Assembly: GCA_025055755.1 (NCBI GenBank)
Contig: JANWWF010000008.1
Span: forward strand, 1-55,191
Length of the DNA stretch: 55,191 nt
Reading direction: 5' to 3'
From: Candidatus Kapaibacterium sp.
GTDB lineage: Bacteria; Bacteroidota; Ignavibacteria; Kapaibacteriales; NICIL-2
In this document: in pieces, positions 6,723 to 9,035 of the stretch
Layout of the letters: each line of letters opens with the position of its first letter
Position numbering within the stretch: position 1 is the stretch's first letter
Made by a program: the position numbers and the translations under genes
Notes under the pieces: generated by a model
What the model saw: the letters and a program-made list of their open reading frames with translations, nothing else
The model's database searches: none
What the model was told of the DNA's origin: nothing

Positions 6723-7433
6723 ATGCAACGAGTGGTCGGCGTTGATGGGTACCGAAGTGGATGGATCGCAGTAGAGTTGCACGTTGAGCATACTCACCTC
6801 CTTACCGTAACCGCCCGCCATGCATCCCATGTTAGTCATCTTCTCTACGACTATGCCGATGCCGCAGCAATTGCAGTAGATATGCCCATTGGGCTATGGG
6901 ACGACGGCCGAGCACGAGCGCGCCCCTGCGACACAATTGCTCGCAACATACTTGGCTTGCGCGCCAGCACAATCTTTTCTCCTCCCACTCGGGCAATGCT
7001 CTCTGCATCGAGCTATGAATCGCTTCGGGGCGCTGGATTGAGCATTCAAGCATTCCATCTTATTCCTTCGATTCGCCAGCTTGATGAGCTGCTCACGCCA
7101 GCAATGCAAGAGCGCATTTGGGAATCGCATCCGGAGCTAAGCTTTACAGCAATTACAGGAACGCCAATCTGTGCCTCCAAGCACACGCGCAAGGGCAGCA
7201 TGCAACGCATCGCAGCACTATCTCACGCATTTGGACTTTCCCCCGCTGCGATGGAAACGCTGGTTGACGATTTGCGTCGAATGCTGCACATGCCAACAGC
7301 AGCAACCCGCGATATCATCGATGCATTTGCCCTGGCATGGAGTGCATGGCGTTCCGTTCGCGGTTGTGCAGAGGTGTGCACAGGCGAGCCCGCAACCGAT
7401 TCGCGTGGTCTTTTTATGGCTATTCGCTACTGA
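6723..7433 (+). CDS. DUF429 family protein (predicted RNase H-like fold)
   Basis: A 236-residue protein of the DUF429 family, whose members are predicted to have an RNase H-like fold; no activity is established. The N-terminal strand VVGVDGYRSGWIAVEL and the following AVDMPIGL carry the conserved acidic residues. SHPELSF and DDIIDA-like segments (here RDIIDAFALAW) occupy the usual C-terminal places. It stands alone between lspA and a gene-free stretch. Function is unknown. Confidence 0.8.
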   Translation: MQRVVGVDGYRSGWIAVELHVEHTHLLTVTARHASHVSHLLYDYADAAAIAVDMPIGLWDDGRARARPCDTIARNILGLRASTIFSPPTRAMLSASSYESLRGAGLSIQAFHLIPSIRQLDELLTPAMQERIWESHPELSFTAITGTPICASKHTRKGSMQRIAALSHAFGLSPAAMETLVDDLRRMLHMPTAATRDIIDAFALAWSAWRSVRGCAEVCTGEPATDSRGLFMAIRY

Positions 7434-7595
7434 ACCAGTCTATATGCACTCTGCGTCTCTTAATGCGGAGGCGGCAGAATGCAAAACAAAAGACGCGCAA
7501 GAAAAAACTGTGCCATTATGGAAGGAAAAAATTCTTGTAACCATCGACAAAAAAAGTGCTTGCATGCGCGGAGGTGCCATATTATTTTCGCGCTG

Positions 7596-7690
7596 GGAGA
7601 GAGTACGTGATGCCTCCTTTCGTTGTGGTGGTGAAAGGTCTCCGGGGAGTGCCCCTCGATGTTGTGGTGCGTCGAGGGGCATTTCTTTTT
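7596..7690 (+). ncRNA. Candidate small RNA: two hairpins with identical GTTGTGGTG loops, second one a terminator
   Basis: Hairpin 1 has an outer stem GGAGA (7596-7600)/TCTCC (7639-7643) and an inner stem CCTTTC (7616-7621)/GAAAGG (7633-7638). Its loop contains GTTGTGGTG (7622-7630). Hairpin 2 has a perfect 9-bp stem GCCCCTCGA (7651-7659)/TCGAGGGGC (7672-7680), and its loop again contains GTTGTGGTG (7661-7669). A T-rich tract follows, so hairpin 2 looks like an intrinsic terminator. A TATTTTCG box at 7583-7590 (one mismatch to TAnnTTTG) sits 5 bases before hairpin 1. Because the downstream gene has its own box at 7701-7708, a free RNA is favoured over a leader. The strand is inferred from the T-run. 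Confidence 0.45.
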
Positions 7691-7700
7691 CAAGACAGAG

Positions 7701-7708
7701 TATCTTTG
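7701..7708 (+). promoter_or_regulatory. TAnnTTTG -7 box for the amidohydrolase-like gene
   Basis: TATCTTTG matches the consensus exactly and ends 31 bases before ATG 7740. It lies downstream of the terminator hairpin, so the gene is probably transcribed independently of the RNA candidate. Confidence 0.5.
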
Positions 7709-7739
7709 AATTGTTTCACTACTGTCTCCGATATGCAGA

Positions 7740-9035
7740 ATGATTCTGCTCGTTGCCCTTTTCGTGTTCGTCTCGATTGAAGCGGTAGCGCATACAGAAA
7801 CGCCGGGACAGCCGCAGCAACAGCCTATTGCGTTGGTCGGTGGGCGCATCTATACAATCTCCCACGGGATTATCGAAGAAGGCACTGTTGTATTCGACCG
7901 TGGGAAGATTATCGCAGTGGGCACAAACGTCCCCATTCCTGCCAACGCATACCGCATTGACTGCCGAGGGAAGCACATCTATCCAGCCCTGTTTACATCC
8001 CATTCGACCATTGGGCTGATTGAAATCGAGGCAGTCCGCGCCACCCGCGATGCAGCGGAAGTTGGGCAATTCAACCCGAATGTCCGTGCTGATGTTGCCT
8101 ACAATCCCGACAGTGAAGTTATCCCAACGGTTCGCTCCAATGGGATTTTGCTTGCCACTGTTGCCCCCGAGGGCGGGTTTGTTAGCGGCATTGCCTCAGT
8201 TATGCAGCTGGATGGATGGACGCGGGAAGATATTGCTCTGCGCCCCCAGGCAGCCTTGGTAGTCAACTTCCCAGCACTGGCAACGTACCGTGCACCGTGG
8301 ATTCGACGCTCCGCTCCAGAGCAGCGCCGAGATGCAGAACGCCAAATTGATGCACTCTATGACTTTTTCCGTCGCGCCCAGATGTATGCCCGTGCAGCTG
8401 CAGCAGGGCTTGCCGACTCGAAGAAAGACCTTCGCTTCGAGGCACTGCGCCCCGTTTTCGATGGCACTATGCCGGTGATGATTCGTTGCTGGGAGTACAA
8501 GCAAATTCTTCGTGCAATTGAATTTGCCCAGCATTTTCAGCTGCGCGCAATCCTTGTCGGTTGCAGTGATGCATGGCGATGTCTCGACCAGATCAAGCAG
8601 AGTGGTTTCCCCGTTATCATTGGCCGGGTCCACAGCTTGCCTATGCGCGATGAAGAAGATTACGACATTGCTTACCGTTTACCCGCTATTCTCGATAGCG
8701 CCGGCATTCCTTTCGCTATCAGCGATGCGGGATTCTGGCAGCAGCGCAATCTTCCCTTCCAGGCTGGAACTGCTGTCGCATTTGGACTTCGCCACGACGC
8801 CGCTCTCCGAGCAATCACGCTTTCGCCAGCAGAAATTTTCGGCGTTGCTGATCGAGTCGGTTCAATCGAGGTCGGCAAGGATGCCACACTGATTGTCTCC
8901 AGTGGCGATATTCTCGACACTCCGACCAGTCGCGTCGAGATGGCATTTGTGCAGGGACGTCGCGTCTCTCTTGAAAGCAAGCACACGCGACTTGCCGAAA
9001 AGTACCGCACTCGTTACCGCCAAATGGCGCGATGA
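7740..9035 (+). CDS. Secreted amidohydrolase-like protein lacking the usual metal motif
   Basis: A 431-residue protein with a signal peptide (MILLVALFVFVSIEAVAH). It resembles the imidazolonepropionase-like branch of the amidohydrolase superfamily: an N-terminal composite strand region (ALVGGRIYTISHG), a central barrel and the C-terminal signature GSIEVGKDATLIV. In active members the first strand reads P-G-L-I-D-x-H-x-H. Here the place is taken by IYPALFTSHSTIGL, with only one His, so the binuclear metal site appears lost or altered. It overlaps the next gene by ATGA. It may be a non-enzymatic or altered family member; the substrate is unknown. Confidence 0.75.
   Translation: MILLVALFVFVSIEAVAHTETPGQPQQQPIALVGGRIYTISHGIIEEGTVVFDRGKIIAVGTNVPIPANAYRIDCRGKHIYPALFTSHSTIGLIEIEAVRATRDAAEVGQFNPNVRADVAYNPDSEVIPTVRSNGILLATVAPEGGFVSGIASVMQLDGWTREDIALRPQAALVVNFPALATYRAPWIRRSAPEQRRDAERQIDALYDFFRRAQMYARAAAAGLADSKKDLRFEALRPVFDGTMPVMIRCWEYKQILRAIEFAQHFQLRAILVGCSDAWRCLDQIKQSGFPVIIGRVHSLPMRDEEDYDIAYRLPAILDSAGIPFAISDAGFWQQRNLPFQAGTAVAFGLRHDAALRAITLSPAEIFGVADRVGSIEVGKDATLIVSSGDILDTPTSRVEMAFVQGRRVSLESKHTRLAEKYRTRYRQMAR

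Follow-up and report, generated by a model that had tools for sequence, protein, structure and literature searches.

In Listeria, the small RNA LhrC displays one motif twice, in an upstream loop and in its terminator loop, each of which can bind the Shine-Dalgarno region of a target, and Hfq is dispensable (PMC4132741). In Neisseria, NmsRA and NmsRB repress metabolic mRNAs by anti-Shine-Dalgarno sequences located in a loop and in a single-stranded linker (PMC5362039). Here, we describe a predicted small RNA of ~95 bases (7596-7690; all features are on the + strand) from a window of 55,191 nt of Candidatus Kapaibacterium sp., the whole stretch of DNA that was analysed. Like LhrC (PMC4132741), it repeats a short motif in its upstream and terminator loops, and this motif should be able to pair with a target's Shine-Dalgarno sequence, from which we infer a related mechanism. 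The LhrC motif is CU-rich (UCCC), whereas that of the Kapabacteria RNA is GU-rich, with its CCUCC part placed in the stem arm and ahead of it. LhrC is encoded in multiple copies, whereas the Kapabacteria RNA is single-copy and showed no sequence relation to it in Rfam searches. The likeness to NmsR (PMC5362039) lies in the anti-Shine-Dalgarno sequence and in the predicted repression of a metabolic mRNA, but NmsR consists of two sibling copies in another phylum and the Kapabacteria RNA of a single gene, and their sequences differ.

Two further systems are close in architecture or in host. Cyanobacterial Yfr1 (PMC2190773) is likewise a short, lineage-wide RNA with two stem-loops, an ultraconserved exposed sequence and secondary losses; its ultraconserved element ACUCCUCACAC, however, is unpaired between its hairpins, and it has no known sequence relation to the Kapabacteria RNA. 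FopS and GibS of Bacteroides, studied with the protein RbpB (PMC11697453), resemble it in the Bacteroidota promoter type, the terminator hairpin, the regions of translation initiation at which they pair, and hosts that carry RRM proteins, whereas FopS forms a family of 14 copies whose 5′ seed GTGTTTTTCATAG... is single-stranded, and is unlike the Kapabacteria RNA in sequence, copy number and structure. A literature search retrieved no paper that links Kapabacteria with small RNAs. Judged from its sequence and conservation, the RNA defines a new family of small RNAs whose general type is known, and for the window's genus it has a good candidate target.

Architecture of the RNA gene

The initial annotation drew attention to two copies of GTTGTGGTG 39 bases apart (start to start), the second within a terminator, and we confirm both at 7622-7630 and 7661-7669. 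Taken alone, this repeat is weak evidence because 9-mers repeated less than 60 bases apart are not rare in the window (38 against 16 expected); it becomes meaningful through its conservation. The fold of positions 7570-7700 reaches z = −4.2 relative to shuffled sequences. The first copy lies in the loop GTTGTGGTGGT of hairpin 1 (7616-7638), in which CCTTTC (7616-7621) pairs with GAAAGG (7633-7638). In the window, this hairpin is weak (about −5 kcal/mol) and other pairings compete with it. The region TGCCTCCTTTCGTTGTGGTGGTG (7611-7633), which is complementary to the Shine-Dalgarno region of an oxidoreductase mRNA, covers the 5′ arm and the loop of this hairpin. The segment GGGGAGTGCC (7644-7653), invariant in the alignment columns, runs into the stem of hairpin 2, a strong, GC-rich intrinsic terminator stem-loop TGCCCCTCGA ... 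TCGAGGGGCA (7650-7681) that is supported by compensatory changes. Its arms are formed by 7650-7659 and 7672-7681, its loop holds the second GTTGTGGTG copy, of which six of nine bases (7663-7668) are unpaired according to the partition function, and it is followed by the U-tract TTTCTTTTT (7682-7690).

A promoter-like box had been proposed upstream, and the box TATTTTCG (7583-7590) is indeed present; it is, however, a −7 box of the Bacteroidota type (consensus TAnnTTTG) accompanied by a TTG rather than a sigma-70 element. TTG-N20-TAnnTTTG is the promoter type of Bacteroidota, and the −33 TTG of the window (7560-7562) is separated from the −7 box by a spacer of 20 bases, a length kept in nearly all members. 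The −7 box is conserved in all five genus loci (L001-L005). Among 55 members, the full promoter is perfect in 20, with 0.4 expected from shuffles, and scores 8-9 of 9 in 34, with 3.5 expected. Placing the start 6-7 bases past the −7 box and the 3′ end at the U-tract, we expect from the TTG and TATTTTCG an RNA that starts at ~7596 and ends at ~7690, in agreement with the length of ~95 bases that had been suggested. Several lineages have a short U-tract, and intrinsic termination is therefore less certain there.

An exact TAnnTTTG box, TATCTTTG (7701-7708), stands between the terminator and the next gene in all five loci L001-L005. The amidohydrolase gene (PF01979; 7740-9035), a neighbour outside the RNA, therefore probably has a promoter of its own in the window's genus. 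In family f16, four loci (L151-L154) carry a long conserved 5′ extension, CAGGAAAGCCTCTCTATGATG ... TTCTCTCTCA, ~100 bases upstream of the core, and lack the usual promoter box; there, the RNA may be longer or transcribed differently. A short coding gene was rejected for the locus: insertions and deletions of one and two bases between close members disrupt every frame.

Distribution and conservation

In a blastn search with 7540-7760 against 60 relatives, four of the genus's five other members matched with E values of 1e-52 to 1e-61, and many further families of the order showed ~80% identity over ~80 bases. According to covariance model matches, which correspond to 7613-7693, 60 of 123 genomes in the order (Kapabacteria) carry the element, nearly always as a single copy; it was found in none of the f3 family genomes that were searched. 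A second covariance model recovered it also in another family of the class, f16, CTCCTTTCGTTGTGGTGGTGAAA included. Matches of the covariance search in f14, f17-f20, f59 and others turned out on inspection to be GC terminators of the usual sort, lacking both the loop and the GGGGAG segment, and were discarded. Among ~85,000 genomes, the exact core pattern matched 31 contigs, all of them MAG records, whose titles name Kapaibacterium, Kapabacteria, Ignavibacteria(e), Chlorobiota, Bacteroidota/Bacteroidetes or an unclassified bacterium. Pattern searches across the phylum returned order members only, apart from a single sequence outside the class (G229:C16:836523-836541; L164) that fits the 19-base loop-1 pattern TTTCGTTGTGGTGGTGAAA with one mismatch, probably by chance. 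Viral contigs gave no match, and a phage origin was dismissed.

No Rfam family matched in the window at the gathering score, and a relaxed search of 7400-7800 yielded chance-level matches only, the best of them rnk_pseudo with 21.7 bits (cut-off, 55). A search of 31 genomes for 6S RNA gave no match above the cut-off. One partial 6S-RNA-like match (G027:C12:14235-14322; L174) scored 39.7 bits, slightly under the Rfam cut-off, in a group for which 6S RNA was not detected otherwise.

The two hairpins are conserved in different ways. The initial annotation had proposed to check for loops that stay constant on varying stems, and the terminator hairpin shows this pattern: computed over the alignment, 10 of its 15 pairs show compensatory changes, 98.0% of the cells in the extended helix are paired, and the loop retains GUGGUG in 51 of 57 members while the stem varies. 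In hairpin 1, the stem (CCUUUC/GAAAGG) has no covariation support and the loop, with GUGGUG in 41 of 57 members, has been lost in several lineages, namely in all f2-g4 members, in f4 and in part of f2. In f5 and f6, another sequence stands in place of loop 2. In a core of 33 members, loop 1 is invariant or almost so, and GTTGTGGTGGTGAAAGG, located upstream, and GGGGAGTGCC hardly vary. The claim that both hairpins display the same 9-base loop is thus correct for the window's genus, to which the five of 57 members with the 9-mer in both loops belong; the element common to both loops throughout the order is GUGGUG, not the 9-mer. In addition, the GAG of the GGGGAGTGCC segment pairs with a CTC-like strand 3′ of the terminator stem. 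This strand has alternative pairings, either with the GAG just 5′ of the stem or with a UGAG further upstream, of which the window's genus retains the GAG pairing only.

A candidate target in the genus

In the window's genus, the GTTGTGGTG of both loops is complementary to CACCACAAC. A genome scan for CACCACAAC near start codons, proposed in the initial annotation, revealed no enrichment of the 9-mer (42 sites, compared to 43 with the reversed control), but it did uncover one site with extended complementarity. This site, which stands out among the 40 outside the RNA gene, is located at G000:C70:67143 and reads CATCACCACAACGAAAGGAGGCA-ACT-ATG. It forms 23 uninterrupted pairs (22 Watson-Crick, one G-U) with positions 7611-7633 of the RNA and spans the Shine-Dalgarno sequence of a Gfo/Idh/MocA oxidoreductase of 340 residues (Pfam PF01408; start codon at 67166 of G000:C70). 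The RNA is thus complementary to the mRNA of another locus at its ribosome-binding site, as predicted for a trans-acting RNA, and the 23-base complement supports the suggestion that the RNA may base-pair through its loop region. We scored targets by contiguous helices, since RNAduplex energies are too permissive to discriminate. The helix score of the target is 56.5, compared to 40.5 for the next best of 3616 background segments.

Within the genus, G001 and G004 likewise have 23 uninterrupted pairs, and G002 and G003 have 22 of 23, with a single mismatch in the Shine-Dalgarno sequence. The shortest uninterrupted complement, 14 pairs in a row, is that of G005, a genome in which the covariance model search did not find the RNA. 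Comparison of the six leaders of the genus shows a mean pairwise identity of ~0.25 for the columns 5′ of the block, whereas the block that extends from CAC to GGAGGC shows little variation. This conserved block stops where the complementarity stops, and the footprint reaches well past the Shine-Dalgarno sequence. The GAAAGGAGG part of the complementarity would pair with any strong anti-Shine-Dalgarno stretch, so that the specific part comprises ~14 bases.

In the other genera that were checked, the same oxidoreductase gene lacks the complementary block. The target is therefore genus-specific, and the order-wide conservation of loop 1 is not explained by it. A search for a universal target with a long complement gave ~20 matches outside the RNA at up to two mismatches, compared to 19 with the reversed-pattern control; at up to one mismatch, only the genus target and one site in a G007 3′UTR were left. 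The latter (L250:3198-3218), CACCACAACGAAAGTAGGCAT, is a one-mismatch complement of the RNA; it directly follows a 153-residue ORF, past the stop codon, and precedes a terminator, and might possibly act as a 3′UTR sponge site. The tmRNA 3′ trailers of f5 (L253, L254, L287-L290, L320) contain TTTCACCACCACAAC or near variants, a complement of 14-15 bases to loop 1; this might be a sponge or, as it occurs in one close genus only, chance. Matches of 15 bases at the start of an ECF-sigma gene in G058 and in a response-regulator leader in G013 could not be told apart from chance and were rejected. The target gene itself is preceded by sigma-54-like −24/−12 elements in the genus (L336-L341; TGGCACnGTATTCGCC) and at L348 and L356 (G050 and G046; GGCACGATTCTTGCT in G050), which suggests that its transcription may be regulated.

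Proposed mechanism and alternative readings

We favour, with some confidence, the reading that the locus encodes a small RNA of ~95 bases acting in trans, which pairs with the ribosome-binding site of the oxidoreductase mRNA and represses its translation. The RNA would be transcribed from its own housekeeping promoter and end at its own terminator hairpin. Its 5′ half would offer an anti-Shine-Dalgarno stretch, CCUCCUUUC, that continues into the exposed loop GUUGUGGUGGUG. Docking on the target leader would be initiated by loop 1, perhaps also by the matching terminator loop, whereupon the weak stem 1 would open, CCUCCUUUC would mask the Shine-Dalgarno sequence and translation initiation of the oxidoreductase would be blocked in the cell. 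The GTTGTGGTG copy of the terminator loop could make the same 9-base contact, and we infer that it probably serves as a second docking site, comparable to Listeria LhrC. Across the order, the constant loops must presumably also serve another partner, either further targets recognized by short seeds or an RNA-binding protein.

The strongest competing explanation, which we regard as possible but rather unlikely, starts from this second option: the GUGGUG loops would bind an RNA-binding protein, for example the single-RRM protein present in nearly all genomes of the order, the RNA acting as a sponge or as a chaperone-dependent small RNA, and the oxidoreductase pairing would be a later, genus-specific addition. 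The persistence of GUGGUG in loop 2 despite the changing stem fits this explanation, as does the finding that long complementary targets are not common to different genera; an RRM protein is encoded in 59 of 61 genomes of relatives, and Bacteroides RbpB does bind small RNAs (PMC11697453). The distribution of the partners, in contrast, speaks against it, as the f3 family, which yielded no match to the RNA, has RRM proteins equally and there is no co-loss, and so does the replacement of loop 2 in f5 and f6. The protein classes to which the initial annotation had compared the loops do not apply. No Hfq gene was found above the cut-off in any of the 61 genomes, with positive controls, which speaks against an Hfq-dependent RNA, and a CsrA sponge of the CsrB/RsmZ type is rejected because the loops carry GUGGUG without the repeated GGA. 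More tentatively still, we consider an ancient Kapabacteria RNA whose loops are fixed by a universal partner and onto which individual lineages graft their own mRNA targets. In this Hfq-less group, the partner would probably be an RNA-binding protein. In the window's genus, the terminator loop would have grown from AGUGGUGA to GUUGUGGUG, and both loops would thereby match the new target.

A cis-acting leader of the amidohydrolase gene downstream, in the form of a riboswitch or attenuator whose regulated terminator is hairpin 2, is improbable. An amidohydrolase gene does follow the element in 20 of 34 loci, and the GGGGAG and UGAGA strands compete for the CUC strand, which could constitute a switch. 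Such a leader requires a constant type of downstream gene, however, and at the other loci the element is followed by an alpha/beta hydrolase, Obg or a CcsA-like gene, or by genes on the opposite strand such as convergent ATP-synthase subunits. A TAnnTTTG box, moreover, separates the terminator from the gene in the window's genus and in f2-g4. Since the neighbouring genes change across the order while promoter and terminator sequences are conserved, as predicted for an independent transcription unit, the sequence evidence identifies the locus as a real, stand-alone RNA gene and not the leader of one gene. That hairpin 2 with its U-tract, a good terminator, merely ends the upstream DUF429 gene in a window where 9-mer repeats are common is hardly credible and already contradicted by the order-wide conservation of ~80 bases including unpaired segments, by the RNA's own promoter and by the different upstream genes of other lineages.

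The trans-acting RNA that we propose combines a compact, conserved RNA with a specific and testable mRNA target in bacteria without detectable Hfq. The footprint of co-conservation between small RNA and mRNA, a 23-base block within an otherwise randomised leader, is unusually clear. The family may thereby provide an entry point into how base-pairing RNAs operate in RRM-carrying Bacteroidota.
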